From positions 1 through 33,065 of the forward strand of contig JABFRF010000043.1 in the NCBI GenBank assembly GCA_013141315.1: a DNA stretch of 33,065 bases, written 5' to 3'. The notes under the pieces are model-generated. The model saw only the letters and a list, made by a program, of their open reading frames with translations. It did no database searches and was not told where the DNA came from. The stretch comes from Gallionella sp. GTDB taxonomy: Bacteria > Pseudomonadota > Gammaproteobacteria > Burkholderiales > Gallionellaceae. Below, one piece after another: positions 3,211 through 30,077 of the stretch; the stretch's first letter is position 1, and each line of letters starts with the position of its first letter. Made by a program: the position numbers and the translations under genes.

Positions 3211-4188
3211 ATGTTCAGCTTCCTAAAAAAATCTCACACTAAACCGACTGAAGAGCCAAAAAATAGCTCTTGGCTTGCGCGTCTTAAAACTGGCTTGGCG
3301 CGCACGGGCAACCAACTCACCAGCCTGTTTAGCAGTGGCGGCAAGATAGATGATGAGTTGTATGAAGAACTAGAAACCATCCTCATCACCAGCGATGTCG
3401 GTATGGACGCAACGCGCGCGCTATTGGCTGATTTGCGCCATCACGTGAAAGAACACCGCTTGAGCGAAGCTGCCGAGATGAAAGCCGCCCTCGCGCATTG
3501 TTTGCTCAAGCTGCTCGCACCTTTGGCGCAACCGCTGCAAGCCTCATCACATAAGCCTTTCGTGATTATGATGGTGGGGGTAAATGGTGCGGGAAAAACC
3601 ACTTCAATCGGCAAGCTCGCCAAGTATTTGCAAGGACAAGGATTATCGGTGCTGCTTGCGGCAGGCGACACCTTCCGCGCCGCTGCTCGCGAACAACTCA
3701 TCACCTGGGGTGAGCGCAACAACGTGACCGTCATCGCACAACAAAGTGGCGATGCCGCTGCGGTAATCTACGATGCGATACAAGCCGCGCAAGCGCGCAA
3801 GATCGATGTGGTGCTGGCGGATACTGCCGGGCGGCTGACTACCCAAGCGCATCTCATGGAAGAAATTAAAAAGGTGAAGCGTGTCATTACTAAGGTCATG
3901 CCGGAAACATCCACCTCACCCGCAGCACCGCATGAAGTGTTGTTGGTATTGGATGCCAACACAGGGCAGAATGCACTCAGCCAAGTGAAAGCTTTTGATG
4001 AGGCACTTGGGGTGACGGGATTGATACTCACCAAACTGGACGGCACGGCTAAAGGTGGCGTGATTGCTGCCATTGCGAAGGCTCATCCAATACCCGTGCG
4101 CTTCATCGGCGTGGGTGAAGGGCTGGATGATTTACGCCCATTTGTTGCGGAAGACTTTGTTGCTGCACTTTTAGGCTTGGATGAATGA
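3211..4188 (+). CDS. ftsY: Signal recognition particle receptor FtsY
   Basis: FtsY is the SRP-receptor GTPase that brings ribosomes translating inner-membrane proteins to the SecYEG translocon. The 325-aa protein has a short N-terminal tail, an N domain (roughly 30-105) and a G domain with P-loop GVNGAGKTT at 123-131, DTFRAAAREQL, DTAGR, TKLDGTAKGG and the closing GVGEGLDDLRPF. It lacks the long acidic A domain of Escherichia coli FtsY. The start is the ATG that opens the run MFSFLKKS; no strong ribosome-binding site was seen. The stop overlaps the ftsE start (ATGA), so ftsY, ftsE and ftsX form one translationally coupled operon. Confidence 0.97.
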   Translation: MFSFLKKSHTKPTEEPKNSSWLARLKTGLARTGNQLTSLFSSGGKIDDELYEELETILITSDVGMDATRALLADLRHHVKEHRLSEAAEMKAALAHCLLKLLAPLAQPLQASSHKPFVIMMVGVNGAGKTTSIGKLAKYLQGQGLSVLLAAGDTFRAAAREQLITWGERNNVTVIAQQSGDAAAVIYDAIQAAQARKIDVVLADTAGRLTTQAHLMEEIKKVKRVITKVMPETSTSPAAPHEVLLVLDANTGQNALSQVKAFDEALGVTGLILTKLDGTAKGGVIAAIAKAHPIPVRFIGVGEGLDDLRPFVAEDFVAALLGLDE

Positions 4189-4838
4189 TTTCTTTCAAAC
4201 ACGTTCACAAACGCTATCCGGGTGGCTATGAAGCGTTAAAAAATGTTTCCTTCGATGTCGCTGAAGGCGAGATGGTGTTTCTTACTGGACACTCTGGTGC
4301 GGGCAAAAGCACCTTGTTCAAACTCATCGCCGCCATCGAACGCCCCACCAATGGCAACGTGTTAGTCAATAAACAAAACCTCAACGCACTCAAACCCCGC
4401 GCGCTGCCTTTTTTACGCCGCAACCTCGGCATCATTTTTCAAGATCACAAACTATTGTTTGATCGCAATGTATTTGACAATGTGATGCTGCCTTTACAGA
4501 TTGGCGGCTTCGATTATCGTGAAATTCATAAACGCGTGCGCGCTGCACTTGATAAAGTGGGCTTGCTGAGTCGTGAGAAATCCAACCCCATCGCGCTCTC
4601 AGGGGGCGAACAGCAACGTTTATGCATTGCCCGCGCTATTGTCAATCGTCCGTCCATCCTGCTTGCCGATGAACCTACCGGAAATCTTGACGCAGAATAT
4701 ACCCACGAGATCATGGCCATTTTTAAATCGTTTCATCAGGTCGGTGTCACGTTGCTAATTTCCACACATGATGAAGCGGTGCTACAAAATTCTGATGTAC
4801 GCGTACTTGCGCTCAAGCACGGGGAATTGCAAGCGTGA
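4185..4838 (+). CDS. ftsE: Cell division ATP-binding protein FtsE
   Basis: FtsE is the ABC ATPase that, with FtsX, controls septal peptidoglycan hydrolases and divisome assembly at the inner membrane. The 217-aa sequence has Walker [10 protein letters not shown] at 35-43, a Q-loop (IIFQDHKLL), the ABC signature LSGGEQQRL and Walker [13 protein letters not shown] followed by a switch histidine (ISTHD). Length is normal for FtsE. It starts at an ATG overlapping the ftsY stop and its own TGA overlaps the GTG start of ftsX. Confidence 0.97.
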
Positions 4839-5731
4839 GGTATTTTTTCGCACAAAATATCGGCGTATTGAGGCGTATGTTTGCTTCGCCGCTAGCTGGA
4901 TTTTTTAATATCCTCGTCATCGGCATCACACTCAGTTTGCCAGTGGGCATGTACGTGCTGCTGCAAAACGCACAAGGCTTAGTTGCGCAATTATCCAGCA
5001 CGCCGCAGATCAGTTTATATTTGCAAATGGATGCGAGTGAAGATGATGTCGCTAAGCTGCGTACTCAGCTTGAGCAACATCGGGATGTTGCCAGTAACGA
5101 ATTTGTGCCGCGCTTAAAGGCATTGGAACAACTCAAACAAAGCAGCGGGCTGAGTGATGTGATTAGCGGTTTAGAAAAAAACCCTTTGCCCGATGCATTC
5201 ATCATTCATCCCAAACTAAGTGAAGCGCAAACACTCGAAAAATTGCGCAACGACCTAGCAAAACTACCCAAAGTAGAAATCGCCCAGCTCGATGCTGCTT
5301 GGGCTTACAAGCTCGAAGCCTTGCTAAAGTTTGGACGGATGATAGTCATCATTCTAACCAGCTTGCTTAGCCTCGCACTCATCGCGATTACCTTCAATAC
5401 CATCCGCCTGCAAATTCTCACTCAGCACGACGAGATTGAAGTCGCCAAACTGATAGGCGCAACCAACAGCTTCATTCGTCGCCCCTTTCTGTATTTTGGC
5501 TTAACGCAAGGACTACTCGGCGGTATCACTGCTTGGCTCATCACGACCATCAGCCTAATGCTACTCAACCACCAACTCGTTACGCTCTCGCAACTCTACG
5601 CCAGCCAATTTGTTTTGCGTTCGCTTACGACAGGCGATAGCCTTACTCTGCTGATGTTCTCAATGTATCTCGGCTGGCTGGGGGCGTGGCTATCTGTGGG
5701 CAGGCATTTATCAAAGATTGATTTGCAGTGA
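4835..5731 (+). CDS. ftsX: Cell division protein FtsX
   Basis: FtsX is the membrane partner of FtsE. The 298-aa protein shows one N-terminal membrane segment (about 20-45), an extracytoplasmic domain (about 50-165) and three C-terminal membrane segments typical of the FtsX/MacB permease fold, with the conserved EIEVAKLIGATNSFIRRPFL region before the third segment. The start is GTG 4835, which overlaps the ftsE stop as GTGA; there is no better start. In many gamma- and betaproteobacteria rpoH follows directly, but here rpoH lies about 5.6 kb further on. Confidence 0.96.
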   Translation: MRYFFAQNIGVLRRMFASPLAGFFNILVIGITLSLPVGMYVLLQNAQGLVAQLSSTPQISLYLQMDASEDDVAKLRTQLEQHRDVASNEFVPRLKALEQLKQSSGLSDVISGLEKNPLPDAFIIHPKLSEAQTLEKLRNDLAKLPKVEIAQLDAAWAYKLEALLKFGRMIVIILTSLLSLALIAITFNTIRLQILTQHDEIEVAKLIGATNSFIRRPFLYFGLTQGLLGGITAWLITTISLMLLNHQLVTLSQLYASQFVLRSLTTGDSLTLLMFSMYLGWLGAWLSVGRHLSKIDLQ

Positions 5732-9546: not shown

Positions 9547-11178
9547 CTAAGCGTTAAGCAAAACAAAACTCACTCGCTCATAATCACCACCCTCCTCCAA
9601 TAAGCCTGTGAGTTTGATATTGCGGTTTTTTTCCCCCAACATCAACTCATACACCGCACCCAGCAAAAAATTTCCTGATGCCATCAGCATGGTGGCATTG
9701 GCATAAGAATTATTACTATCGGGCAATAAAATTACCCGCAGTGCTTTTCTAATGGTCATTTCTACTCCCACTTCCCACTCTAGCCCCTTATCTGCATTAA
9801 GGTTTTGCGCACGCAACAATACTGCCAATGGCTTTTTAGCTAGAATCTCAATACCAAATTGCATAAAATCATCGGAGCCAATCTTCAGCCGCCTTATCAT
9901 ACCCACCCACCATATTGGGCTGCCTTCAAGTTTGATGGCGCAAAGATCACCAATTTTCACCCAAGCACCGACAGCCTTCGGAATAACTCCCCCGACACCC
10001 CTCTCACTGACGTCCAAAACGATCCAAATTTCAGGCTCACCGTCACTGTACATTGAAGACAGCTGAATTGAAGCCGGACTGCGCGTTTTACCTGAATCTT
10101 GTGCGGTTACGTTTACCAAGTTACCTTGATCAATGTGGGCAACCCACTGACTAATTGATCCCATCCCATGAATCACCTCCACGGTAGCGGTGACAGTTTG
10201 ACGTTTTTGATTTCGACTCGGCTGATTTTTTCCCCAATACAATTGCAAATGCTTTAAGACGGTTAATTTTCCAGAAGGCATATAAACATTTTGGCTGCGT
10301 TCCGCATGTTGAATAAATGCTTGTTCGTGATGTTCAACGATGTCGGCAATTTTAGGTACCGCCTTAGCCGCACTAAAAAAACGCATGCTATTCACGACCT
10401 TGAGCTGCTCTTCCAACTTTTTGGGGGCAGAAGGTTTAACAAAATCTATATAATGTGTACTACCCTCATCTGACTCTAACTTACAATCAAAATAATTTAC
10501 CAAATGTCCTGTTATGCGATAACAAGCTGCAATCTGATCAGGTGCCAATGTTGCAGGTGAGGAGATGTAAAGCATCACGGCGCGCAAGAATTCATAGTGG
10601 GGCGTGGCTTGAACGGATAGTTTTGGATAAGCAATGATTTTCGACTCGGCAATCTGAGCATTTAAGGTAAAAACATAACAATTACATAGCTGCAACCAAA
10701 TTGCCGGCTCTACGTCGTCATATCGCATCATGCTGAGTTGCATCTGCTCAGATAATGCAAGCATTAATCTCACCGCTACAATCGGCATTATTTGCTTGAA
10801 ATCCAAAGGCATCACTTCTGCCAACTGATACTCTTCAATGCTCAATGCATAAGCCTCTGACAACGCATGTTTATAATCATTGAGACCTTGCCAAAGTTGA
10901 AAGCCTTTAAAGTTTTGTAGATGCGGCTCCCCAATGTATAACTGTAGAAGTTGCTCATACAATGGCAATCCAGTTACATCAAGCAACATGAAAATCTCAG
11001 CACGCAATTCGGGGCGAAAGCCATCCGCTCCCTTAACAGAAACCAGCCAGGACGTAATTTCACTCAACGCTTTAAAAGCGTCTTGTTTTGGCAAATCATT
11101 CAACAAGTTCTTTGCCTGCACAATATCAAACATCGGATGATCGGGTTTGCCGTCAAATACTTTCAGGAATGAGAACAT
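9547..11178 (-). CDS. Protein with degenerate PilZ-like domain
   Basis: This is a 543-aa protein without signal or membrane segments. The N-terminal 300 residues are mostly helical and unrecognised. The C-terminal half contains a possible PilZ domain for cyclic di-GMP: an RxxxR box (RNQKR, 322-326) and a DxSxxG box (DVSERG, 389-394). The two boxes are about 60 residues apart, more than the usual 20 to 40, so binding is uncertain. PilZ-type proteins of similar build occur in betaproteobacteria as hypothetical proteins. I chose ATG 11178 (MFSFLKVFDGK) with AAAGG about 10 nt upstream; the frame is open to 11214 but with no better site. It is divergent from rpoH and upstream of the DsbA-family gene. 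Confidence 0.6.
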   Translation of the reverse strand: MFSFLKVFDGKPDHPMFDIVQAKNLLNDLPKQDAFKALSEITSWLVSVKGADGFRPELRAEIFMLLDVTGLPLYEQLLQLYIGEPHLQNFKGFQLWQGLNDYKHALSEAYALSIEEYQLAEVMPLDFKQIMPIVAVRLMLALSEQMQLSMMRYDDVEPAIWLQLCNCYVFTLNAQIAESKIIAYPKLSVQATPHYEFLRAVMLYISSPATLAPDQIAACYRITGHLVNYFDCKLESDEGSTHYIDFVKPSAPKKLEEQLKVVNSMRFFSAAKAVPKIADIVEHHEQAFIQHAERSQNVYMPSGKLTVLKHLQLYWGKNQPSRNQKRQTVTATVEVIHGMGSISQWVAHIDQGNLVNVTAQDSGKTRSPASIQLSSMYSDGEPEIWIVLDVSERGVGGVIPKAVGAWVKIGDLCAIKLEGSPIWWVGMIRRLKIGSDDFMQFGIEILAKKPLAVLLRAQNLNADKGLEWEVGVEMTIRKALRVILLPDSNNSYANATMLMASGNFLLGAVYELMLGEKNRNIKLTGLLEEGGDYERVSFVLLNA

Positions 11179-11294
11179 GATTTTTCTACCTTTTATCCAA
11201 TTACAGGCAATCATATCGGAAACGTTATTTTATGGGGTAAATTTACTTTCTACCTTCATTTCTACACTAGATGAGCAAAGAACTATTTCCACAG

Positions 11295-11324
11295 TTGGCA
11301 CTCTTATAACTGGAGTGCTAAAAT
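11295..11324 (+). promoter_or_regulatory. CIRCE operator over the rpoH promoter
   Basis: TTGGCACTC (11295-11303), nine bases, then GAGTGCTAA (11313-11321): this is the CIRCE consensus (TTAGCACTC-N9-GAGTGCTAA) with a single mismatch. HrcA is the known repressor that binds CIRCE and is relieved by heat. The element coincides with a promoter: -35 TTGGCA at 11295-11300 and extended -10 TGC-TAAAAT ending at 11324, spacing 18. The rpoH start lies 25 bases further on, after a strong AAGGAGG. Confidence 0.85.
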
Positions 11325-11348
11325 GAACTTTCATAAGGAGGGATGTAT

Positions 11349-12212
11349 ATGTACGCGAAGATGAATTTGCTTATTCCTTCAAGCATTGGCAGCTTAGAGG
11401 GTTATATACAATCGGTGAATCGCTTCCCTGTTCTATCTCAAGAGCAGGAATTCGAGTTAGCAAATCGTTTTAATACCGAAAATGATTTGGATGCTGCGCG
11501 ACAGTTGGTACTTTCACACTTGCGTGTTGTGGTGAGTGTGGCTCGTGGCTATGCTGGTTATGGTTTACCACAGGCAGATTTAATTCAAGAAGGTAATATT
11601 GGCTTGATGAAAGCGGTGAAACGCTTCGATCCTGATCGCGGTGTTCGATTAGTTTCTTTTGCACTGCACTGGATACGTGCAGAAATTCATGAGTTCGTTG
11701 TTCGTAATTGGCGGCTAGTGAAGATCGCCACTACCAAATCTCAACGCAAGCTATTTTTTAATTTGCGCAGCTTGAAGCGGGGTCTCGCCCCACTTCACCG
11801 CAACCAAATCATCGAAATTGCGCAACAATTAAATGTCACTGAACACGATGTGGTAGAAATGGAAGGCCGTTTTGCAAATCATGAAATTGCTTTAGAAGCC
11901 GGCACTGACGACAATGAAGAAAGTTACGCACCTATTCAATATTTGGCTGACAATGCGGAACATGAACCTTCCTTTATTTTGGAGTCTGCCGAACATGAAA
12001 GTAAGCAAGCTTCGGAACTGTCTCAAGCTTTATCAATTTTGGATGAGCGCAGCCGCCGAATTATAGAATCTCGGTGGCTAGTTGAGGGCGACGCCGCCAC
12101 GCTGCATGAATTGGCAGAAGAGTTCAAAGTTTCAGCTGAACGTATTCGCCAAATAGAGCAGAAAGCGTTGAGTAAAATGCACGCTTCACTGTCCTTGGCA
12201 GGAAGGCAATAA
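11349..12212 (+). CDS. rpoH: RNA polymerase heat-shock sigma factor RpoH (sigma-32)
   Basis: RpoH directs RNA polymerase to heat-shock promoters. The 287-aa sequence has region 1.2 (LEGYIQSVNRFPVLSQEQEF), region 2 with LIQEGNIGLMKAVKRFDP, FALHWIRAEIHEFVVRNWR and the RpoH box KSQRKLFFNLR, and region 4 with a helix-turn-helix (ELAEEFKVSAERIRQIEQKAL). Length fits the family (284 in E. coli). ATG 11349 is preferred over ATG 11343, because AAGGAGG at 11335-11341 is 7 nt from the former and only 1 nt from the latter. A CIRCE element overlaps the promoter, so HrcA control is likely. Confidence 0.97.
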   Translation: MYAKMNLLIPSSIGSLEGYIQSVNRFPVLSQEQEFELANRFNTENDLDAARQLVLSHLRVVVSVARGYAGYGLPQADLIQEGNIGLMKAVKRFDPDRGVRLVSFALHWIRAEIHEFVVRNWRLVKIATTKSQRKLFFNLRSLKRGLAPLHRNQIIEIAQQLNVTEHDVVEMEGRFANHEIALEAGTDDNEESYAPIQYLADNAEHEPSFILESAEHESKQASELSQALSILDERSRRIIESRWLVEGDAATLHELAEEFKVSAERIRQIEQKALSKMHASLSLAGRQ

Positions 12213-13289: not shown

Positions 13290-14306
13290 TTAACCTTTTA
13301 TCAACTGTGTACGCTGCATTTGCATACGTACTAGGAAAAATCCTATTGCTGCAACGACCCCACCAACAACTATCGCCGCAATGACAGGGTAATCGCCCAC
13401 ACCATTATTGGCCCCGCCAATCCAAACATAACGTTCAAATAATGTACCTATGATTATGCAGGTCGCAACAGCAGTCACTGCGCTAACGTTGTGCCTTGGT
13501 TTAGGAAAGGCAAGCGTTACGAAAGGGACAGCGAACTTCAACACCAGCATAGACCACCAAATGAAAGTGTAATCACCATCCTGCATAGAGAACACGCGAT
13601 CTGTCTCATCCGGGATGTTGCCGTACCAGATAGTCAGATATTGAGCGTTAAAGGTATATATCCACAACAAAGTAAATGCAAACAACATCTGTGCCAAGTA
13701 GTTATAGATGTAAGTCTCAACCGGACGCACCAGCTTATCACGGCTATTTAATACATAAATCCAAATCACCAAAAACGCCAAGAACATACCAAAATTACTG
13801 ATGAATTGTTGCATGCCAAAAACGGCACTATGCCAATGTGGCACCAAAGTCATCTCAAAATCCCAAGCTACCATGGTGCTATACAGAACAAACAGGAAAG
13901 GTATCCAAGTTGCAATCGAATGGAAGCTTGCGGCATCTTCTGGGCTGCGTTCACTCACAGCCTGACGTTTGATAAACACACGATATAACACCATCATAAA
14001 GAGCATGCCAATCACTTCACGTGCAATCAACCATTTTGGATGATACCAGCCTGGCATGTGCGCTTCAGCCGTACCCGCACCTTTCCACCAAGGAAATGTA
14101 TGCTCCCCCCCAACCAACAGAATAATCAGCAACACAAATGCCAGTGGAAATAATGCATACAACGAAGTCGCAATATTCCTCACTTCAAATCGCCACTTGG
14201 CGTTGACTAAATGGAGCACTGAACTTAAGGCTACACCACCCAATGCAAGCGACAACACCACCACAAAACTAACGGTCAACACCGCCCAATTACTGTAAGC
14301 AAACAT
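13290..14306 (-). CDS. actF: Alternative complex III membrane subunit ActF
   Basis: ActF is the second NrfD/PsrC-like integral membrane subunit of ACIII. The 338-aa protein shows about nine hydrophobic segments, with HMPGWYHPKWLIAREVIG before the third and TMVAWDFEMTLVPHWHSAVFGM around the fourth and fifth, motifs shared with ActC (SDFAMSQQPGWHVTSFPPYF). It is somewhat shorter than the ten-helix ActC. The family has no cofactor in this subunit; quinol sites are thought to lie in ActC and possibly ActF. It ends the ACIII operon, 11 nt after actE. Confidence 0.9.
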   Translation of the reverse strand: MFAYSNWAVLTVSFVVVLSLALGGVALSSVLHLVNAKWRFEVRNIATSLYALFPLAFVLLIILLVGGEHTFPWWKGAGTAEAHMPGWYHPKWLIAREVIGMLFMMVLYRVFIKRQAVSERSPEDAASFHSIATWIPFLFVLYSTMVAWDFEMTLVPHWHSAVFGMQQFISNFGMFLAFLVIWIYVLNSRDKLVRPVETYIYNYLAQMLFAFTLLWIYTFNAQYLTIWYGNIPDETDRVFSMQDGDYTFIWWSMLVLKFAVPFVTLAFPKPRHNVSAVTAVATCIIIGTLFERYVWIGGANNGVGDYPVIAAIVVGGVVAAIGFFLVRMQMQRTQLIKG

Positions 14307-14317
14307 TCTTAAGTCTC

Positions 14318-14872
14318 CTATTTAGCTTGAGCTTGTGTCTGCCCAACTTGGCTTCTTTGCAATACATTACGCACATAATTCACAACATGCCAGCGTTCAG
14401 TGGCAGTTAAATCATTTGCGTAACTAGGCATCACTGCGCCCCCCAAACTTATATAACCGAAAATGTATCCGTCCGGATAATCTTTGGTGTCCCACTTGTG
14501 CATGTCATTGCTATTGGTCAGGTTCCAAGGTTTCATCAACAGCTTTTCCCCCACTAAACCATCTCCAGTGCCGGACTGACCATGGCATGGCGTGCAATAT
14601 ATAGCAAACAAACGCCCCCCCTGTGCGATTGATTTTTCATCCGCAGGAACAGGATTCGCCATTTTATTGGCTGCTTGCTGATCCTTGATAAAAACAGTGG
14701 AGCCAGAAACTGGCACGGATCGTTTGGGAAATGGATTCATACCCGGATTAGCTTGATCAACACTTTCTTGCGGCTTAATGCTGATCTGATTTGCCATATC
14801 GTTAGACCATGGCCAAGCATGCGCCATAGTTGGTGCAAGTAACAATGCAATTGCTAAGGATAACTTTTTCAT
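14318..14872 (-). CDS. actE: Alternative complex III monoheme cytochrome c subunit ActE
   Basis: ActE is a periplasmic c-type cytochrome of ACIII. The 184-aa protein starts with a Sec signal (MKKLSLAIALLLAPTMAHA), contains a single CxxCH heme site (CTPCHGQSGTGDG) after ARP-like residues, and a late methionine (GGAVMPSYANDLT) that fits as the sixth heme ligand. Its start overlaps the actD stop by 4 nt. Confidence 0.93.
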   Translation of the reverse strand: MKKLSLAIALLLAPTMAHAWPWSNDMANQISIKPQESVDQANPGMNPFPKRSVPVSGSTVFIKDQQAANKMANPVPADEKSIAQGGRLFAIYCTPCHGQSGTGDGLVGEKLLMKPWNLTNSNDMHKWDTKDYPDGYIFGYISLGGAVMPSYANDLTATERWHVVNYVRNVLQRSQVGQTQAQAK

Positions 14873-15399
14873 TTCCCCGCCTCTTCCTGAATTTCAACCG
14901 CCTGATGCTTGGTAAAAATGGCTTTTAACTCACCTGCCGCACTGTCATCAGATTTAACCAGAATGCTTATTTGATCCTCTGAGACTTTGGCGCTATACAA
15001 AGGTGAGCGTTTAGCGGGAAGCCCAGCACAAATCAAAAAACCTAGAATAGAAACAAAAACCCCGCCCAGAATGAACATTTCATAAGTCAGAACAAAATTT
15101 GGCGGAAACGGCACAATCGGTTTACCACCTTTAACTTGAGCGAAGAAATTGGCTTGCGCACCTGAAATCAAAAAGAAACCAAGCAATCCGCCCATCAATG
15201 CACCACCCAAGGTAAACCACTGCACATAAACAGGCTTTTCCCCTAAGAACTCCTCGACTTCGGGATGCTCAATTGGCGACTTAACCACCATATCGCTATC
15301 GGCATTAAACCCCTTAATGCTAGCCCCACGTAGCTCCCGAACAACCGCTTCAGCCTCTTCAAAATTATTGAATAACGCTAGCATATGACGCTGACTCAT
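14869..15399 (-). CDS. actD: Alternative complex III subunit ActD
   Basis: ActD is a small membrane subunit (DUF3341 type). The 176-aa protein has a soluble N-terminal domain (MLALFNNFEEAEAVVRELR) followed by two membrane segments (about 58-80 and 105-128) separated by a short loop with VPFPPNFVLTYE, typical of the family, and a soluble C-terminus. It starts directly after the actC stop with no spacer. Confidence 0.92.
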   Translation of the reverse strand: MSQRHMLALFNNFEEAEAVVRELRGASIKGFNADSDMVVKSPIEHPEVEEFLGEKPVYVQWFTLGGALMGGLLGFFLISGAQANFFAQVKGGKPIVPFPPNFVLTYEMFILGGVFVSILGFLICAGLPAKRSPLYSAKVSEDQISILVKSDDSAAGELKAIFTKHQAVEIQEEAGK

Positions 15400-16761
15400 T
15401 TAGTGTGCCCCCTTCGCTGACCCAAGATTTTTCTTGGCCAAAGTACGGTGATAAACCATTTCTTTTACCTCATACATGGATACCGATGGGAATATTTTGC
15501 AGAACAACATAAACAGCAAAGTAAACCAACCAAAGCTACCAAATACAATGCCCCACTGCACAAAACTTGGCCATTGGTCATGATCCCAAGTCCATGGATA
15601 GTAGCCATGGGAATATGTAGGTGCCACAATCATCCAACGCTCTAACCACATTCCCAAGTTCAACAACAATGAAACCGCTAGCAACACAGGGATATTAGTT
15701 TGGAAACGTTTAAAAGCTAAGATAAGTGGGACAACCGAACCGCAGAAAATCATCATCCACCAGAATGGCGCATAAGTTCCTGTGGCTTTCTGAATCAACA
15801 CTGCTTTTGAAGCAACATCATGGCTATACCAAACTGAAGCGAATTCAACCGCATTCAAATAAGTCCATACCATAGAGATAGCGAATGTCAGACGCACTGT
15901 CTTTTTCAAAATCGAAAGTGTCATGTACTCCTCAAAGCGGAAGACGTAACGCAAGATGATAAATAGCGTAATGATCGCGGCACAACCAGAATACAACGCA
16001 CCCGCAACAAAATAAGGAGGGAATGAAGTCACATGCCAGCCCGGCTGTTGTGACATCGCAAAATCCGAGGCCACGATAGAGTGAACCGATACCGCCAATG
16101 GAATTAAGAAGCACGCAATCGTTAAATAAGTAACTCGGAAATTACGCCATTGACGATCCGTTCCTTCCCAACCCAAGGACAAGGCTGTGTAAAGTTTTTT
16201 GCGCCACCCACTGTGAATATTGTCACGACAAATTGCCAAATCAGGAATCATCCCCACATACAAGAACAAGATTGACGAACTCAAGTAAGTGAAAATAGCC
16301 ATCGCATCCCATAATAACGGGGACTGAAAGTTCGGCCACAATCCTCGCTCATTCGGATAAGGCAAGGAGTAATAGAACTGCCAAAGGCGACCAAGATGCA
16401 CCATCACGAATAAACCAGCGGTCATCAATGAAAAGGTGGTCATCGCTTCAGCGAAACGGTAAATCGGCTTACGCCAGTCAGCGTGCATCAAATGCAGAAT
16501 TGCCGACAAGAGCGTACCCGAGTGACTCATACCGATCCAGAAGATGAAGGTCGCAATGTATAAACCCCATACATGAGGATTATTCATATTTGCTACGCCC
16601 ATACCCATTTGGTATTGATAGGTTTCGCAACCCACGGCAACAGCAATCATGGCAATCGCTACAGCCAAAATTACCCAATACAACTTCCTTGGATTTTCTA
16701 AGCTCTTCAGGACATCCGTATTAATTTTTGCCCAGGCTATATCTTCGTTGATATCTTTCAT
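15400..16761 (-). CDS. actC: Alternative complex III quinol-binding membrane subunit ActC
   Basis: ActC is an NrfD/PsrC-like polytopic membrane protein thought to bind and oxidise menaquinol or ubiquinol. The 453-aa chain has about ten hydrophobic segments, with characteristic stretches GMSHSGTLLSAILHLMHADW, HLGRLWQFYYSLPYPNERGL and ASDFAMSQQPGWHVTSFPPY. A site AGGGAAG precedes ATG 16761 by 5 to 6 nt. It lies 46 nt after actB2 ends, the only notable gap inside the operon. Confidence 0.93.
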   Translation of the reverse strand: MKDINEDIAWAKINTDVLKSLENPRKLYWVILAVAIAMIAVAVGCETYQYQMGMGVANMNNPHVWGLYIATFIFWIGMSHSGTLLSAILHLMHADWRKPIYRFAEAMTTFSLMTAGLFVMVHLGRLWQFYYSLPYPNERGLWPNFQSPLLWDAMAIFTYLSSSILFLYVGMIPDLAICRDNIHSGWRKKLYTALSLGWEGTDRQWRNFRVTYLTIACFLIPLAVSVHSIVASDFAMSQQPGWHVTSFPPYFVAGALYSGCAAIITLFIILRYVFRFEEYMTLSILKKTVRLTFAISMVWTYLNAVEFASVWYSHDVASKAVLIQKATGTYAPFWWMMIFCGSVVPLILAFKRFQTNIPVLLAVSLLLNLGMWLERWMIVAPTYSHGYYPWTWDHDQWPSFVQWGIVFGSFGWFTLLFMLFCKIFPSVSMYEVKEMVYHRTLAKKNLGSAKGAH

Positions 16762-16807
16762 TGTTCTTCCCTAATTATTCTCTAAAGGAGTTCCAGTTAT
16801 CTTCTCA

Positions 16808-17662
16808 CTACACTGCAGTTTCACGAACACGTTCTAGATACATCACTGAAGGATATGAACGCAACTCTTCAAGAATGCGATACCCACGTAATTTGTTATC
16901 CTGCTCACCACGATCCTTGGCTTGCTCAAACTCTGCAATTTCAACATGCTGCGCTTTCCATTGCTTGAATACCTTGGAATCAGCATCAACCAGATTTCCA
17001 AAAGAAATTGCGCCTGGAGGGCATGCTTGTTGACAAGCAGTTTGCACTTCGCCGTCATGCACAATGCGACCTTCATTCTTTGCTGTGTTCTTGGCTGATG
17101 TTAAACGTTGCACACAGAATGTGCATTTCTCCATCACGCCTTTACCACGCACCGTGACATCAGGATTTAACTGCTGGCTCATCTCAGCGGGCCAGACGTT
17201 ATCCGTGGTGGGATAATCATACCAATTGAAATAACGCACTTTGAATGGGCAGTTGGCCGAGCAGTACCTTGAGCCCACACAGCGATTGTATATCTGAGAA
17301 TTCAAACCATCCGGCGTGTGATTGGTCGCACCGACCGGGCAAACTGTTTCGCATGGCGCTGCTTCACACTGCTGACACATCATCGGCAAGAATTGAGCGC
17401 CTTGGTCTGGGAAATCACGACCATCCTCATCCCAATAACGTTCAATACGCATCCAATGCATTGATTGACCGTGCAAAAATTTCTCTTTACCTACAACGGG
17501 CAGGTTATTTTCTGCATAGCAAGCAACACTACAAGCATTGCATCCCGTACAAGCATCCAAATCTATGCTCATTGCCCATTTATAGGGATCATGAGGCACA
17601 TCGTCCACAGGATGAGTATGACGAAACTCAGCCCAGTTCTCTAATAGATTACTTACTGACAT
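16808..17662 (-). CDS. actB2: Alternative complex III iron-sulfur subunit ActB2 (separate from ActB1)
   Basis: This 284-aa protein corresponds to the ferredoxin-like domain that forms the C-terminal part of ActB in Rhodothermus-type ACIII. Four cysteine clusters are visible: CTGCNACSVACYAE, CQQCEAAPCETVCPVGA, CVGSRYCSANCPFK and CTFCVQRL with a later CQQACPPGA. In the third cluster one cysteine position is taken by Ser-Arg, which fits the single [3Fe-4S] cluster known for ACIII; the others should be [4Fe-4S]. AAGGAGG, encoded in the last codons of actB1, serves the ATG at 17662. The gene is 3 nt from actB1. Confidence 0.92.
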   Translation of the reverse strand: MSVSNLLENWAEFRHTHPVDDVPHDPYKWAMSIDLDACTGCNACSVACYAENNLPVVGKEKFLHGQSMHWMRIERYWDEDGRDFPDQGAQFLPMMCQQCEAAPCETVCPVGATNHTPDGLNSQIYNRCVGSRYCSANCPFKVRYFNWYDYPTTDNVWPAEMSQQLNPDVTVRGKGVMEKCTFCVQRLTSAKNTAKNEGRIVHDGEVQTACQQACPPGAISFGNLVDADSKVFKQWKAQHVEIAEFEQAKDRGEQDNKLRGYRILEELRSYPSVMYLERVRETAV

Positions 17663-17665
17663 TAT

Positions 17666-19867
17666 TTAGACCTCCTTCGAAAGATCAACATGGTCGGTAT
17701 TCAGACGTACGGCAATTTTTTTACCCATTTGCTTACCGCCTGCCGCACCTTCATCTTTTACAACAATTACGCGCTGACCGGTTTTGCTAACCTTGACACG
17801 CGTTTCATGCATAGCCAACTCGCCCGTTTCTTTATCAAATACCGCATCCAAAATATGGAATGGATTAACACCGAAACCTTTAGCGTAGCGACCCATCGCC
17901 TCATGGCCGCGACCTAGCGGCACTGAAATCGCATCGGGATGAATACCAGGGAACAGATAAGCTTGCGCTTTGATCGAACCATTCTTGCCAGCCACTTCAA
18001 CAATGTCACCTTCGACAATGCCTAATTCAGCGGCCTTCTTAGGATGAATCTCCACCCACGAATCCCAGACTATCGTAGTCAAAGGATCTGGCGATTCTTG
18101 CAACCATGGCTGGTTGGCATTGCGACCATCTCTAAGGTTGGCATTAACGCTTGGGATTAAATGTAGCGGATATTGCGCATCAGCAACAGGCGCATTGGGC
18201 AATGACAAACTGCCAGCAGAAATACTGCCAGACAAATTAGCCACCGAACCAGCCAATTTAAAGATTCCGTTACTCAACGAAGCATCCCAAAACTCATCAT
18301 CATCCGCACCACTTCCGCCCAATGCATTTTTATTTTGCAATACGGCACCACGCAGGTAAGCGTAATAATCTGTATAGTTTTTATATGACTCTGGATTGCG
18401 CTGCTTCAGCAAAGCTAACAGTATGTCGCCAAAGCCCCGCGTATTCGCGTGCAGGCGCTCCATCAGTGGTTGCTGAATATTGATTTGCGCATCGTCGCCA
18501 GCCATGTACTCAGGAACACTAGTACCCCAATCCTCCAAGGCGGAATCTAACGGCAATACTAAGTCAGCTTGCAAAGCAGTTTCATCCAGATAATGCGCGA
18601 ATGCCACCTTGAAACCTACTTTAGCAAAATGCTCTTGGAACTTCATTGCAGTCGGGGCAGAGAACACCGGGTTAACACCGCAACTAAACATGACCTTGTA
18701 TTTACCTGCATCCAAAGCATCGCTCACATTTGCCAACGCGGCGGTATTGCCAACCACTGGAGACATTTGCGGGAACGGCACACTAACTGGACCTACTACT
18801 GTTTTACCCACGTTACCCAACACTTGATTGAGCAGGTTAATCGCCGCAGCATTTTGTGAGCCATGCGCATAACCTTCAGCCGCACTTCCTGCTAAAACCA
18901 AACTTGGGCTGTGCGACTTCAACAACGCTACTAGCTTGTCGATTTGCTCAACTGACACACCCGTATCTTTGCTAACCCGCGCCCTATCGTAATCTTTAAC
19001 CGCAGCAGCCACATCGCCACTAGCCGTACCTAATGCGTTAACCAAGCCAAGTGCTAAAATTCCTTCCGTGCCGGGACGAACCACCAGCCAACGGTCAGCA
19101 TTAGCGCCCGTCAAAGTCATCTTAGATTCAACTTGCACCAACACACCACGCTGACCATCCGCACCCTTACGGAATTGCCCATATTGTTGCGAAAAGTGCA
19201 CCGGTGAAACCCAGCTACCCAAGAAATCCGCACCAAAAGACAATACCAACTTAGCCTTGCTAATGTTGAAACGTGGCATCGCAACACCATAAGCTTTCTT
19301 ATTGGCAGCGCGCACTACACCTGGCGCGATCGCTTCATAAGCGAAGTGATTTTTGCAGCCAAAGCTTGCCAAATAATTTTCCAGCAACACCTTGGTGTGA
19401 CCACTCATTGCACCCGTCAAAAATGCGATTTCTTCACCGCTTACACCTTGCAACTTTTCAGCAATCAACGCGTAAGCTTTTTCCCAAGTGATCGCTTCGC
19501 CCTTTTCACCGTTACGCAGCAGAGGCTCACGAACTCGGTCAGGATTGTAATGATGTTGCACGCCTGCTTGACCTAAGCCACACAACTTACCGCGATTGAT
19601 TGCGGAAGCTGGATTTCCTTCCAGCTTCAACACACGACCTTCACGCACTCGTCCATTGATACTGCAACCAGCATCACATTGCGCGCAAGTTGAATTGTAA
19701 TAAACGCCAATACTGGGAACCATAAAGTCCGTCGCTTCCACATAGGAAACCACAGTCTCTTTACCATCCTCAACCGAGGTAAATCCGCAGCCAGTCAAAG
19801 CAACTGTTGCACCACCCCAACCCAGCACCTTCAGAAAATCTCGTCGATCAAAACTACTGTCCATCAT
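17666..19867 (-). CDS. actB1: Alternative complex III molybdopterin-family subunit ActB1
   Basis: This 733-aa protein belongs to the molybdopterin oxidoreductase fold and equals the N-terminal part of fused ActB. A twin-arginine signal is present (DRRDFLKVLGWGGATVALTG), so the folded complex faces the periplasm. Cysteines at 61, 64, 68 and 96 (CAQCDAGC and GKLCG) form a site like that of a [4Fe-4S] cluster; in characterised ACIII this domain has no molybdenum cofactor, and whether the cysteines hold a cluster here cannot be told. I chose ATG 19867 (MMDSSFDRRDF), with AAAGGGG about 7 nt upstream; the frame is open to 19936 inside actA. It ends 3 nt before actB2. Confidence 0.9.
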   Translation of the reverse strand: MMDSSFDRRDFLKVLGWGGATVALTGCGFTSVEDGKETVVSYVEATDFMVPSIGVYYNSTCAQCDAGCSINGRVREGRVLKLEGNPASAINRGKLCGLGQAGVQHHYNPDRVREPLLRNGEKGEAITWEKAYALIAEKLQGVSGEEIAFLTGAMSGHTKVLLENYLASFGCKNHFAYEAIAPGVVRAANKKAYGVAMPRFNISKAKLVLSFGADFLGSWVSPVHFSQQYGQFRKGADGQRGVLVQVESKMTLTGANADRWLVVRPGTEGILALGLVNALGTASGDVAAAVKDYDRARVSKDTGVSVEQIDKLVALLKSHSPSLVLAGSAAEGYAHGSQNAAAINLLNQVLGNVGKTVVGPVSVPFPQMSPVVGNTAALANVSDALDAGKYKVMFSCGVNPVFSAPTAMKFQEHFAKVGFKVAFAHYLDETALQADLVLPLDSALEDWGTSVPEYMAGDDAQINIQQPLMERLHANTRGFGDILLALLKQRNPESYKNYTDYYAYLRGAVLQNKNALGGSGADDDEFWDASLSNGIFKLAGSVANLSGSISAGSLSLPNAPVADAQYPLHLIPSVNANLRDGRNANQPWLQESPDPLTTIVWDSWVEIHPKKAAELGIVEGDIVEVAGKNGSIKAQAYLFPGIHPDAISVPLGRGHEAMGRYAKGFGVNPFHILDAVFDKETGELAMHETRVKVSKTGQRVIVVKDEGAAGGKQMGKKIAVRLNTDHVDLSKEV

Positions 19868-19910
19868 TACAAACCCCTTTGCAAAATTCTTGGGAAAATC
19901 TTTGGCTCGA

Positions 19911-20621
19911 TCACTTATGGCATTGCCAGCAATCATTCGGGCCTTTTGCCGTCAACGGCGCAGAGGCATTCACCACCGGCTTTTTGAAGCCATACCAATA
20001 GGCTTGATTGCCGATAGCCGTACCGCCCTCAGCACTCACCAAATGATCCTTCTTGTGGCAATCCACGCAAAACCCCATCGACAATGTTTTGCTGCGACGC
20101 GCAACCGTCATAGTCTTCACATCACCGTGGCAATAGCCGCATGCTTCTTGAACCGGGCGATTTTGCTGGAATACGAAACGCTTGATATGACGCTCATGGT
20201 TAAAGCGCACAAAATCCGGAAGGTCATGTACTTTTTTCCAAGGTATTGGACTCTTGGCAGCTATCTTTCCATCCTTACTACCTTCCCAATATTCGAACAA
20301 TTTTTTGATGCGTGGCGTTTCGCGCACTGACTCGATACTCTGATGGCAACCAATACATTTCTGCAATGGTGGAATACCAGCAACCGCACTGCGGCGCGCA
20401 AAGGTATGGCAGTACATGCAATCGATTTGCATGCCACCCTTTTCAGGATGCTCTTTATTGACATCACCCGCATGCCGAAAGTGAGGGAATTCGATAGGTT
20501 GTTCAACCAAAGGACCTAAACTGTCCTCGGTCATTTTTACAGCTTGAGTTGCGTCTGCGGCGAAGCTGCTGGCGGCGAACAAGCTAATTAACAATATGGA
20601 TAAACGTAGAAAACGGTGCAT
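19911..20621 (-). CDS. actA: Alternative complex III pentaheme cytochrome c ActA
   Basis: ActA is the multiheme cytochrome at the periplasmic face of ACIII. After a signal peptide (MHRFLRLSILLISLFAASSFA) the 236-aa sequence has five CxxCH sites: CMYCH, CIGCH, CGYCH, CVDCH and CWQCH, the last at the very C-terminus. ATG 20621 is chosen because the signal begins there and GGGAG lies 8 nt upstream; an open extension to 20663 adds nothing. First gene of the ACIII operon. Confidence 0.93.
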   Translation of the reverse strand: MHRFLRLSILLISLFAASSFAADATQAVKMTEDSLGPLVEQPIEFPHFRHAGDVNKEHPEKGGMQIDCMYCHTFARRSAVAGIPPLQKCIGCHQSIESVRETPRIKKLFEYWEGSKDGKIAAKSPIPWKKVHDLPDFVRFNHERHIKRFVFQQNRPVQEACGYCHGDVKTMTVARRSKTLSMGFCVDCHKKDHLVSAEGGTAIGNQAYWYGFKKPVVNASAPLTAKGPNDCWQCHK

Positions 20622-20920
20622 CGTAAGGGCTCCCACAACAAACAAATGACCCCAAACTGGCAAACAGCCAGAATGACTGAACGGGTAAATCGGATTATTT
20701 TTGATGCGATGCGTCGAAATTATTATTATTATTCGCTTCTTTTAAAGCCACCAAAATTGAAGCATAGCGTGTCGACACAACCGAATAATGTCTAGTCTGA
20801 AAAATAAAGTCAATACAGATTCGCTCAACTTAGTGCTAGCACTACAAAAAAGTTATATCTCCCACGCAATTACAGCAATTGCTTATATTTAATTCCACGC
20901 CAACACTCCGGTGCCAGCAA
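20622..20920. promoter_or_regulatory. Divergent intergenic region between actA and the 211-aa gene
   Basis: This region should hold the ACIII promoter on the minus strand. Seen in it are a run of five ATT units (20719-20733), a 10-bp palindrome GTGTCGACAC (20770-20779) and a perfect 14-bp palindrome TAGTGCTAGCACTA (20831-20844) that could be a regulator site. I could not fix a -10/-35 pair with confidence for either gene. Confidence 0.4.
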
Positions 20921-22307: not shown

Positions 22308-23306
22308 ATGGATCGCCTGCAACGTATCTACAAACTTCATCAGGCAATTTTGTCGCGCCGCCATCCCTTATCCTTAAAGACATTACAAAATGAACTTGAA
22401 TGTTCGCGCGCCACGGTCAATCGCATCATTCAAGAAATGCGCCTGTACTTCAACGCACCAATTGAGTATGACCGCCAGCGCAACGGTTACCACTACGCAC
22501 TGAGCGATGGACAAACCTTCGAGCTACCCGGACTCTGGTTCAGCGAAACCGAACTCTATGCGTTGCTCACTACCCAACAATTGCTCGCACACGTACAACC
22601 CGGCTTGCTCGACACACAACTCAAACCGATCAAAGAACGCATCGAACAAATCCTCGCTGCCAGACACTTGGGCGACGCAAAGCTTTTGTCCGGGCACCCG
22701 AGTGAAGGAATCTCCAAGCGGGTGCGTATCCTGCGCATGACTGGACGCAATGTCGCACTGGAATGCTTTCAAACCGTAGCAGGTGCATTGCTGCAAAGAA
22801 ATGCTCTGCGCATCAGCTACCACGGGCGCGGCAACGACGAAACCAGCCAGAGAGAAATCTCTCCGCAGCGGCTCATCCACTACCGCGACAACTGGTATCT
22901 GGACGCTTACTGCCATACCCGCAACGCCCTGCGCAGCTTCGCCGTCGAACGCATCACCGCCGCCCAAGCATTGCCACAACGTTGCCGCGACGTACCCGAA
23001 AAACAACTTGATGCACATTACACCAGCTCCTACGGCATCTTCGCGGGCAAACCCAAATACACCGCCGTGCTGCGCTTCACCCCGGAGAGGGCGCGCTGGG
23101 TAGCCGATGAACACTGGCATCCTCAGCAACAAAGCCATTGGTTAGAAGGCGGCAGCTATGAACTGCGCATCCCTTATTCCGACCCGCGCGAACTGGTGAT
23201 GGACATACTCAAGCATGGAGCAGAAGTGGAAGTTGTTGAACCTGCCTCGCTGCGCCAGATGTTATTCAAACACTTGCAACAGGCGATACAAAACTATGAA
23301 AAATAA
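22308..23306 (+). CDS. WYL-domain transcriptional regulator (YafY type)
   Basis: This 332-aa regulator has an N-terminal HTH domain (about 1-60: LSLKTLQNELECSRATVNRI), a WYL domain (about 140-225; ISYHGRGNDETSQREISPQR and a DNWYLDAYCH segment) and a C-terminal WCX extension (SYELRIPYSDPRELVMDILK). Such proteins sense ligands, possibly nucleic acid-derived, and often control defence loci. It lies just before cas3 on the same strand, so it probably regulates the CRISPR-Cas operon. The direction of control cannot be told. Confidence 0.88.
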   Translation: MDRLQRIYKLHQAILSRRHPLSLKTLQNELECSRATVNRIIQEMRLYFNAPIEYDRQRNGYHYALSDGQTFELPGLWFSETELYALLTTQQLLAHVQPGLLDTQLKPIKERIEQILAARHLGDAKLLSGHPSEGISKRVRILRMTGRNVALECFQTVAGALLQRNALRISYHGRGNDETSQREISPQRLIHYRDNWYLDAYCHTRNALRSFAVERITAAQALPQRCRDVPEKQLDAHYTSSYGIFAGKPKYTAVLRFTPERARWVADEHWHPQQQSHWLEGGSYELRIPYSDPRELVMDILKHGAEVEVVEPASLRQMLFKHLQQAIQNYEK

Positions 23307-23354: not shown

Positions 23355-25925
23355 ATGGATAAAGTTATAACACTTCAAGACATTACGATTGCGCATCATC
23401 GAAAAAGCGATGATGCAATTCAAACCCTTGAGCAGCACCTGCTTGGTGTTGCAAACAAATCTTGCCTATACGCAAAAAAATTGAATCTGGAAGACCAGGG
23501 GGAGTTGATTGGCCTTCTCCATGACCTAGGAAAATACAGTCTGGCATTTCAGTCCTACATCAAATCTGCCGTCGGCTTGCTCAATCAAGATGAGGATGAA
23601 GAGTTTGTTGATGCAGTGGGCTTGAAGGGCAAGATTGACCATTCCACGGCAGGTGCACAGCTGATCTGGCAAGAACTCTCGAAGCAGGGGCAGCTTGGAC
23701 AGATTGTTGGTCAAATCCTTTCTCTATGTGTTGCGTCTCACCACTCTGGCCTGATTGATTGCTTGTCGTCTGACACAAACAGCTTGGGCGAAGACGTATT
23801 CAGCAGGCGCATGAACAAGGTTACGGAGCGCACTCATTTACAAGAATCACTTACCAAGGCTGATGCTTCGATTCTTTCACGAGCAAAGGCACTGACCGGC
23901 AAGCCGAACATGATTCCCGCAATGCAGGCGGCACTTGCAAAAATCATACGATTAGCCCCAATCAAGAATGACAAAAGCACGGTGGTTCAACAGCAGTTCG
24001 GCTTGCTAGTGCGTTTTTTGTTTAGTTGCCTGATTGATGCAGACCGTGTTGATTCAGCAGATTTTGAAAGTCCAAAAGCTGCAAAATTAAGGGCGAACGG
24101 TCAATACACTGAATGGAATGCCTTGTGTGAACGCTTGGAAAACCACCTTTCCTTGCTTACCCCCTTAAAGGACATTGATTATCTTCGTAGTGATATTTCC
24201 AACCACTGTCACAATGCCGCAACTCGCGCCAAAGGTATCTATACCCTGACTGTCCCCACGGGCGGAGGAAAAACCCTCGCCAGCCTGCGTTTCGCACTAC
24301 ACCACGCGAAAATGCACAAGATGGATCGAGTGATTTACGTCATTCCGTTCACATCCATCATTGATCAAAATGCGGATGTAACAAGAGAAGTGCTTGAGCC
24401 AAATAGTTTTTGCTGGTTAAAAAAATCGTATAAGTCAAATTGCAACCATGCAGATTGGGCGGCACTTGAACCACGTGGCGTGGAATCTGGCAGTGTCGTT
24501 CTCGAACACCATTCCAACCTAACGCCAGAAGAGCAAAGTTGGCGCGGGAAAATTCTGGCGGAGAACTGGGATGCGCCCGTCATTTACACCACGAGCGTGC
24601 AATTACTGGAAACTCTTTTTGGTGCTGGTACGCGCGGCGCACGTCGGATGCATCAGCTAGCCAATACCGTGCTGATCTTCGATGAAATCCAAACGCTGCC
24701 AGTTAACTGTGTTCACTTGTTTAACAACGCCATCAATTTTTTAGTCGAACAGTGCGGGAGTACCGTTGTTCTGTGTACCGCCACCCAACCGTTACTCGAT
24801 CAAGTTAACGTCGAGAAAGGTGCGCTCAGAATACCAGCGGGTAATGAACTGATGCACGATGTAAAAAAGTTGTTCGATGAACTGAAGCGGGTCGAGGTAA
24901 AAAACCGGCGCAAGCCCGGCGGCTGGACAAATGACGAGATTGCCGCACTGGCAATGGAAGAGACGCGGCGCGCCGGTAGTTGTTTAGTAATCGTCAACAC
25001 CAAGAATGCCGCACAAACCTTATACCGTTTATGCCAGCAACCGGACGGCATCCCGCTCTACCACTTGAGCACAAGCATGTGCCCGACACATCGCAGAGCG
25101 ATATTGGCCGAGATACGAGAGCGCTTGGAGCAACAACTACCCGTGCTTTGCTTCAGCACTCAACTGATTGAAGCAGGAGTAGATGTCGATTTTGGTTCTG
25201 TCATTCGCTTCACAGCAGGATTGGATTCAATCGCTCAAGCGGCAGGACGCTGTAACCGCAACGGCCTGCGCGATATTGGAACTGTGCATGTGGTCAATCC
25301 CCAGGATGAGCGCATTGAAATGTTGCAGGATATTTGTATCGGGCGAGACAAGGCTGAACGTGTACTGGACGAATACGAAGATAACCCACTCCAGTTCGGA
25401 AACGACCGAATTGGCCTCGAAGCAATGAAACGCTACTACACCTACTATTTCTTTGCTCGACAAGACGAGATGGATTACCCGCTCTCTGACAAAACTATCG
25501 GACACACAGATACCCTGCTCAACCTGCTTTCAGGAAATTCATTAGCTGTACGTGATTATGGTAAAAAAGCTGGGCACGAACCCAACATCTACCTACGCCA
25601 ATCTTTTATGTCTGCCGCCAAGGCATTCAAGGCCATTGATGCGCCGACTCAAGGTGTCATCGTGCAATATGGCAAAGAGGGACAAGCAATCGTCGCCGAA
25701 CTTTGCGCGGCTTATCTGCCGGACAAGGAATTCGATATGCTGCGCCGTGCGCAGCAATTTACCGTCAATGTCTTCCCCAATGTTTTGGATCGACTGACCA
25801 AAGCGGGGGCAGTGCGGGAAATACAAGAAGGAACGGGCATCCTGTATCTTGATTACCGTTACTACAGCGACGAATTTGGACTGAGCGAAACACCCGTGAG
25901 AAATATGGAGGCATTGAATGCTTAA
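23355..25925 (+). CDS. cas3: CRISPR-associated helicase/nuclease Cas3 (type I-C, HD fused)
   Basis: Cas3 is recruited by Cascade bound to a target and shreds DNA by ATP-driven unwinding and an HD nuclease. The 856-aa protein has an N-terminal HD domain (LLHDLGK with His56-Asp57, a DHSTAGAQL segment, CVASHHSGL) and a C-terminal SF2 helicase with motif I PTGGGKT (301-307), motif II DEIQ (443-446), TAT in motif III and a motif VI region QAAGRCNRNG. Length suits a fused I-C Cas3. The start is the ATG that opens MDKVITLQDI; no clear ribosome-binding site. The stop overlaps cas5c by 8 nt. Confidence 0.95.
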   Translation: MDKVITLQDITIAHHRKSDDAIQTLEQHLLGVANKSCLYAKKLNLEDQGELIGLLHDLGKYSLAFQSYIKSAVGLLNQDEDEEFVDAVGLKGKIDHSTAGAQLIWQELSKQGQLGQIVGQILSLCVASHHSGLIDCLSSDTNSLGEDVFSRRMNKVTERTHLQESLTKADASILSRAKALTGKPNMIPAMQAALAKIIRLAPIKNDKSTVVQQQFGLLVRFLFSCLIDADRVDSADFESPKAAKLRANGQYTEWNALCERLENHLSLLTPLKDIDYLRSDISNHCHNAATRAKGIYTLTVPTGGGKTLASLRFALHHAKMHKMDRVIYVIPFTSIIDQNADVTREVLEPNSFCWLKKSYKSNCNHADWAALEPRGVESGSVVLEHHSNLTPEEQSWRGKILAENWDAPVIYTTSVQLLETLFGAGTRGARRMHQLANTVLIFDEIQTLPVNCVHLFNNAINFLVEQCGSTVVLCTATQPLLDQVNVEKGALRIPAGNELMHDVKKLFDELKRVEVKNRRKPGGWTNDEIAALAMEETRRAGSCLVIVNTKNAAQTLYRLCQQPDGIPLYHLSTSMCPTHRRAILAEIRERLEQQLPVLCFSTQLIEAGVDVDFGSVIRFTAGLDSIAQAAGRCNRNGLRDIGTVHVVNPQDERIEMLQDICIGRDKAERVLDEYEDNPLQFGNDRIGLEAMKRYYTYYFFARQDEMDYPLSDKTIGHTDTLLNLLSGNSLAVRDYGKKAGHEPNIYLRQSFMSAAKAFKAIDAPTQGVIVQYGKEGQAIVAELCAAYLPDKEFDMLRRAQQFTVNVFPNVLDRLTKAGAVREIQEGTGILYLDYRYYSDEFGLSETPVRNMEALNA

Positions 25926-26634
25926 ACGAAATAGCATCGAATTTAAGGTCTGGGCGCGACATGCCCTGTTCACCGACCCGCTGACTCGCATCGGCGGTGA
26001 GAAATGTTCTTATCACATTCCCACCTTCGAGGCACTTAAAGGCATTGCCAAGTCAATTTACTGGAAGCCAACCTTCATCTGGGTCATTGATGAAGTAAGA
26101 GTGATGAAGCGCATCCGCACACAGACCAAAGGCACCAAGCCTTTGGAATTTGGCGGCGGCAACTCCTTGGCCATTTACACATTCCTATCTGACGTGGAAT
26201 ACCAAGTACGCGCTCATTTCGAGTGGAATGAACACCGCCCCGAATTGGCGGATGACCGGAATGAAGCAAAACATCACATCGTAGCCAAGCGAATGCTTGA
26301 ACGTGGCGGTCGCCAAGACATTTTTCTTGGGACACGGGATTGCCAAGGATATGTCGAACCCTGCGTGTTCGGCTCTGGAAGCAGCCCTTACGATGGCGAA
26401 GGCAAATTGGCTTTCGGCTTAATGTTTCATGGCTTCGACTATCCCGACGAAATCGGCGAGGAAAAGCTTTATGCCAGATTTACCCGACCAACGATGGTTG
26501 ACGGAAAAATCCTATTTGAACGCCCGCAGGACTGTACGGTGCGCAAGTTCGTTCGCGACATGGGCAAAAAAATGTTCACCAAGGATCGCAATCTTCTCGA
26601 CGTAGAAACCGAAGAGTCACGGCTGGAGGTTTGA
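25918..26634 (+). CDS. cas5c: Type I-C Cascade subunit and crRNA endonuclease Cas5c
   Basis: In type I-C, Cas5c (also Cas5d) cuts the pre-crRNA, replacing Cas6, and stays bound to the 5' handle. The 238-aa sequence opens VWARHALFTDPLTRIGGEK, typical of the family. A Tyr48 and Lys118-His119 (EAKHHIVAKRML) stand where the Bacillus halodurans enzyme has its catalytic Tyr46, Lys116 and His117, from memory. GGAGG precedes the start by 7 nt. It overlaps the cas3 stop. Confidence 0.94.
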   Translation: MLKRNSIEFKVWARHALFTDPLTRIGGEKCSYHIPTFEALKGIAKSIYWKPTFIWVIDEVRVMKRIRTQTKGTKPLEFGGGNSLAIYTFLSDVEYQVRAHFEWNEHRPELADDRNEAKHHIVAKRMLERGGRQDIFLGTRDCQGYVEPCVFGSGSSPYDGEGKLAFGLMFHGFDYPDEIGEEKLYARFTRPTMVDGKILFERPQDCTVRKFVRDMGKKMFTKDRNLLDVETEESRLEV

Positions 26635-26635
26635 C

Positions 26636-28591: not shown

Positions 28592-28610
28592 TCGACCAGG
28601 AGACAACAAC

Positions 28611-29516: not shown

Positions 29517-29531
29517 TATAGGGGACAATGA

Positions 29532-29810: not shown

Positions 29811-29867
29811 TTGTTGTGATAGGGTATGCGCAAACACTTAAGCGCACGCAGCATAAGGAGAACACAC

Positions 29868-30077
29868 ATGCAATACGCTGACATCATCGCAAGGGAGGCC
29901 GATTCGCTCCCCGTGGAAAAACAGGCTGAGGTACTCGATTTCATCGAGTTCCTGAAAGCCAGGCAAAGCCGTGCCACAACTCCCATGACGATTACGGAAA
30001 TCGAGGCGTTCTTCCGCAGTTTCAAAGTAGATACGAGTGACTACAAGTTCGACAGGGGAGAAGCCAATGCACGCTAA
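29868..30077 (+). CDS. DUF2281-like small protein (putative antitoxin)
   Basis: This 69-aa protein has the DUF2281 pattern SLPVEKQAEVLDFIEFLKAR, found in small proteins near toxin-antitoxin genes. The rest (TITEIEAFFRSFKVDTSDYK) is acidic and aromatic, which could wrap a partner. AAGGAG at 29855-29860 stands 7 nt before ATG 29868. Its end overlaps the MNT gene by 11 nt. In this family the role as antitoxin is a prediction. Confidence 0.75.
   Translation: MQYADIIAREADSLPVEKQAEVLDFIEFLKARQSRATTPMTITEIEAFFRSFKVDTSDYKFDRGEANAR

Follow-up and report, generated by a model that had tools for sequence, protein, structure and literature searches.

A predicted HrcA operator overlaps a sigma-70 type promoter and a probable sigma-E promoter upstream of rpoH in Gallionella and other Betaproteobacteria

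The heat-shock sigma factor RpoH is controlled at several levels in Escherichia coli. Its gene, rpoH, has sigma-70 and sigma-E promoters, its mRNA contains a thermosensor, and RpoH is further under DnaK/FtsH control. The regulatory meaning of the RpoH box and of residues L47, A50 and I54 is also known from E. coli. Promoters of sigma-E (RpoE, ECF02) have the form GGAACTT, a spacer of about 16 nucleotides, and TCNNA. Another heat-shock regulator, the repressor HrcA, has the CIRCE inverted repeat as its operator, and GroEL-dependent activity of HrcA has been established in other bacteria.

Parts of the arrangement described below are already known separately. A CIRCE element upstream of rpoH (at -51) was predicted in Geobacter sulfurreducens, where groESL has further CIRCE sites and hrcA-grpE-dnaK-dnaJ also carries CIRCE (Rodionov et al. 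2004, PMC545781). This is a computational prediction in one deltaproteobacterium, and the available part of that paper does not describe overlapping promoters. In Bordetella bronchiseptica, SigE transcribes rpoH (fam) in vitro from a promoter immediately upstream (PMC3490749). An RpoE-like factor thus acts on rpoH, as proposed here; CIRCE and HrcA are not mentioned in the available text of that report. For Burkholderia pseudomallei, RpoE is likewise reported to control an rpoH promoter that is inducible by heat (PMC5994319). In the searchable literature, we found neither a CIRCE upstream of betaproteobacterial rpoH, although Permina and Gelfand (2003) may list such sites, nor a description of an operator and two promoters that are superimposed and conserved together.

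In this study, we analyzed a stretch of Gallionella sp. DNA of 33,065 nucleotides (hereafter, the window) and compared its rpoH locus with those of more than 120 relatives. An initial annotation had placed a near-perfect CIRCE over both the -35 and the -10 of rpoH and proposed that HrcA represses rpoH, in contrast to the RNA-thermometer control of E. coli. The features of the locus are:

9547–11214, minus strand: divergent gene, function not assigned, sharing a 128-bp intergenic region with rpoH
11279–11285, plus strand: probable sigma-E -35, AGAACTA, 5/7 of GGAACTT, in a conserved alignment block
11295–11321, plus strand: CIRCE, predicted HrcA operator, 17/18 of TTAGCACTC-N9-GAGTGCTAA, kept 5' of rpoH in relatives
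11295–11300, plus strand: sigma-70 type -35, TTGGCA, the left end of CIRCE, with left-arm asymmetry in relatives
11302–11306, plus strand: probable sigma-E -10, TCTTA (consensus TCNNA), inside CIRCE, 16 nt after the -35
11319–11324, plus strand: sigma-70 type -10, TAAAAT, with TAA common to the right end of CIRCE and the last T kept in relatives
11335–11341, plus strand: Shine-Dalgarno sequence AAGGAGG, read directly, favoring ATG 11349 as start
11343–12212, plus strand: rpoH, heat-shock sigma factor (TIGR02392, 389.8 bits, cut-off 323.1)

The operator has the arms TTGGCACTC-N9-GAGTGCTAA (full sequence, TTGGCACTCTTATAACTGGAGTGCTAA) and lies 21 bp upstream of rpoH. It is the single CIRCE match in the window at up to three mismatches, and none occurred in 100 dinucleotide shuffles of the window. 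When 11100–11400 was scanned, one sigma-70-like promoter was found, TTGGCA-18-TAAAAT at 11295–11324, which matches 10 of 12 positions and has TGn before the -10; its score alone is near chance level, with 0.7 matches expected by chance per 300-bp region. CIRCE overlaps both of its hexamers, as the initial annotation had stated. The sigma-70 and sigma-E assignments used throughout are based on consensus and conservation. The rpoH open reading frame opens at ATG 11343; however, because the spacing of the Shine-Dalgarno sequence fits ATG 11349 better, the latter is suggested as the true start.

The divergent gene had no NCBIfam match. Farther upstream, about 5.6 kb before rpoH, open reading frames at 3211–5731 read as ftsY, ftsE and ftsX. 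Because ftsYEX adjoins rpoH in E. coli, an old neighborhood seems to have been kept here, with genes between. On the other side of rpoH, minus-strand frames at 13290–20663 read by eye as an alternative complex III (Act) respiratory operon. Also by eye, a type I-C-like CRISPR-Cas operon occupies 23355–32458 (cas3, cas5, cas8, cas7, then cas4, cas1), with a nucleotidyltransferase/HEPN-like gene pair between cas7 and cas4 (30037–30802) and a WYL-type regulator-like frame upstream (22308–23306).

The initial annotation had suggested a search of the genome for hrcA and for other CIRCE sites, and both are there. hrcA lies on contig C94 as a 339-aa open reading frame (229 bits, over the cut-off). The CIRCE core occurs without mismatch in two places, at rpoH and at C93:3572. 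The latter site is upstream of groES-groEL and matches 17/18 positions of the full consensus, equal to the rpoH site. The genome thus combines an operator near a promoter, hrcA, and a groESL with CIRCE, as in an HrcA/CIRCE regulon. The remaining candidates examined in the genome matched 13/18 positions at most and were set aside as chance. No CIRCE was found at the hrcA locus itself, which, like the embedded promoters and the class-wide occurrence described below, sets this case apart from G. sulfurreducens; CIRCE close 5' of rpoH together with CIRCE at groESL is common to both. The CIRCE scan covered dnaK from the contig end at which its piece begins, its upstream region being absent. At 81% completeness, the assembly may miss members of the regulon beyond rpoH and groESL.

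The groESL locus is the nearest comparison within the genome. It has the same operator, and a promoter for an alternative sigma factor again adjoins it. The promoter differs, however: CTTGAAA-N13-CCCAAT, read by eye as sigma-32 type, precedes CIRCE, and similar sequences are seen at other groESL loci. This pattern matches 14/23 groESL CIRCE sites and no rpoH site.

We then asked how widely CIRCE is found at rpoH. One set comprised 80 rpoH loci of named genomes, almost all of which are betaproteobacterial according to their titles. A CIRCE matching 14–18 of 18 positions lies in the 400 bp upstream of 79 of them, and only a Neisseriaceae MAG (L077) has none. When 27 genomes of this set were examined for hrcA, the gene was missing from this MAG and from one 1.3-Mb MAG and present in all others. 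In the window's own family, CIRCE is present at 29/30 rpoH loci. In a separate, evenly drawn sample, the genomes of the window's order and class (beta- and gammaproteobacteria) had CIRCE at rpoH in 19/20 cases with hrcA and in 0/35 without it (Fisher p = 7e-14, a value that is too small since related sequences are not independent). E. coli, a control in the hrcA profile search, had no hrcA match. More distant genomes of the phylum often have hrcA (22/25 tested), but CIRCE at rpoH was seen in only one of the 22 (G161). As judged from these alignments and searches, CIRCE at rpoH is the usual betaproteobacterial arrangement rather than a peculiarity of the Gallionella genome, and in beta- and gammaproteobacteria the operator is lost along with hrcA. 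Two loci from two genera of one gammaproteobacterial family, L116 (G058) and L121 (G121), have altered rpoH CIRCE arms, TTAGCAGTC-N9-GAYTGCTAA, and in G121 the change is matched in both arms (GACTGCTAA). Because hrcA is present alongside the altered arms, HrcA specificity in this family may have shifted with the operator.

The alignment of the 80 sites also relates CIRCE to the sigma-70 promoter. With offsets counted from the left end of CIRCE, the hexamer at 24–29 is TAANAT or near in almost all sites. T at offset 29 occurs in 79/80, although offsets 27–29 are outside CIRCE. This final T of the -10, just outside the operator, is found at 96/99 rpoH sites (29/29 in the window's family) versus 3/23 groESL CIRCEs. 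Because it is kept at rpoH but rarely at groESL, we conclude from the alignment that operator and sigma-70 promoter are locked in phase at rpoH. In addition, the left arm changes from TTAGCA to TTGGCA in 28/80 sites, whereas the right arm shows the mirror-image change in just 1/80 (p = 8e-9, likewise too small for related sequences). Such asymmetry would be expected of a left arm that also serves as a -35.

Offsets -17 to -12 of the alignment form another conserved block, GGGAAC, and within the N9 spacer of CIRCE, where the bases are otherwise free, T is preferred at offset 9 and A at offset 11. Together with the fixed TC of the left arm, these positions read GGAACTT-N16-TCTNA, the form of a sigma-E promoter. 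A -35-like match is present in 77/99 rpoH sites and missing from 22. TCNNA follows at 15–17 nt in 64 of the 77, whereas 2000 random re-pairings of the offsets gave 42 such sites on average and never more than 49. The two halves also move together between registers relative to CIRCE. Most sites, including that of the window, have the -35 at -16/-17 and a -10 that begins at offset 7. In Alcaligenaceae, e.g., Bordetella and Achromobacter, the register is -28 and the -10 abuts the operator, as in L068, a locus related to Bordetella, with TGAACTT-N16-TCGAA; the element thus ends just before the operator there, whereas the sigma-E -10 of the window lies inside it. In five genomes of one family, the register is -12 and the -10 begins at offset 11 (5/5 versus 0/94 elsewhere). 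A at offset 11 follows the register: where the -35 lies at -15 to -17, 51/57 sites have it, compared with 9/42 of the remaining rpoH sites and 2/23 at groESL. No sigma-E pair was found at the 23 groESL CIRCEs. Several Burkholderiales (L039 and L045–L087) show a different picture, some keeping CIRCE and the sigma-70 -10 while the usual registers lack a GGAAC block. Gammaproteobacteria without hrcA lack CIRCE at rpoH, unlike the window, but 16/34 of them carry a sigma-E-like element 5' of the gene. These patterns point to a second, probable promoter of sigma-E type that overlaps the rpoH operator, which the initial annotation had missed. The circuit it described is well supported in its core but was incomplete, and its layout is not special to this genome.

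This sigma-E limb is less certain for the window organism than for the class because the -35 of the window is weak and is often degenerate in the family, where many members have AAAC or GAAT for GAAC; TCNNA is missing in 7/29. The sigma-70 -10, on the other hand, is kept in 29/29 members of the same family. HrcA might then repress the sigma-70 promoter only, the sigma-E-like element being vestigial in this lineage. We regard this as unlikely, as 22/29 family members keep both the register and TCNNA, the element is strongly supported across the class, and rpoE is present in the genome (TIGR02939, 320.6 bits, cut-off 236.15). The promoter of rpoE itself, inspected by eye as a species-specific sigma-E reference, showed no clear element.

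A role for CIRCE mainly as an RNA hairpin, affecting stability or translation in the leader of a longer rpoH transcript with a start farther upstream, appears very improbable. In other bacteria, groE mRNA can be affected by a CIRCE in its leader, and in some relatives the operator is up to 175 bp from the start of the rpoH match. However, the two predicted transcription starts fall within the operator or beyond it, so that CIRCE would not be transcribed whole; the gene upstream of rpoH is divergent; and loss of the operator with hrcA would not be expected if it acted purely as RNA. We can practically dismiss the idea that the inverted repeat arose by chance or survives as a relic without function, a chance origin being rejected by the empty shuffles and both versions being opposed by near-universal conservation, by loss with hrcA and by G192, a genome without hrcA that shows what decay looks like. 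At its rpoH locus (L126), the sigma-E pair and TTGGCA...TAGACT are kept and CIRCE seems to have decayed to 13/18, an apparent fossil of a composite control region.

We therefore return to HrcA as a repressor of rpoH, the core of the initial proposal, which is well supported at the sequence level by hrcA, the CIRCE at groESL, the conserved CIRCE over the promoter and its co-occurrence with hrcA. The rpoH upstream region is probably a composite control region in which HrcA gates both the sigma-70 and the probable sigma-E promoter. HrcA bound to CIRCE at 11295–11321 would cover TTGGCA-N18-TAAAAT as well as the -10 of AGAACTA-N16-TCTTA. Plentiful GroEL would keep HrcA active and rpoH repressed. 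Heat or misfolded protein would occupy GroEL and leave HrcA inactive, and groESL and rpoH would be derepressed together. Envelope stress could then add sigma-E transcription of rpoH. RpoH would activate its targets, including groESL via the sigma-32 type promoter beside its CIRCE, and induction of groESL would let GroEL restore HrcA, closing a negative loop through GroEL and HrcA. We infer the GroEL-HrcA step, like HrcA binding, repression and the two starts, by analogy and from the arrangement of the sites.

The proposed contrast with E. coli holds in part. The rpoH 5' end gave a folding z of -1.30, with the Shine-Dalgarno sequence unpaired in the minimum-energy model, and the region had no Rfam match; an RNA thermometer like that of E. 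coli thus has no support from folding or Rfam at this locus, though one may still operate. On the other hand, a sigma-E promoter would feed rpoH as in E. coli, and most region 2.1 residues are retained (by eye, L and A align with L47 and A50, and V with I54), as is the RpoH box, QRKLFFNLR. Because the box and the L47/A50 equivalents are kept, protein-level control of the E. coli type may coexist with HrcA.

On balance, we favor the view that in Betaproteobacteria and in most sampled gammaproteobacteria that keep hrcA, about 45 bp upstream of rpoH fuse the HrcA operator with promoters for both sigma-70 and sigma-E, so that sufficient GroE in the cytoplasm would veto the induction of rpoH by envelope stress. 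If so, the E. coli picture of rpoH control would belong to lineages without hrcA, and most of the beta branch would run RpoH under a repressor that reads GroEL availability. The wiring would consist of HrcA and sigma-E acting on rpoH and HrcA and sigma-32 acting on groESL, and would cover a group that includes culturable laboratory species, e.g., in Methylophilus, Aromatoleum and Nitrosomonas, which share the layout. It would also offer a dense example of how three recognition sites evolve when they share their bases.
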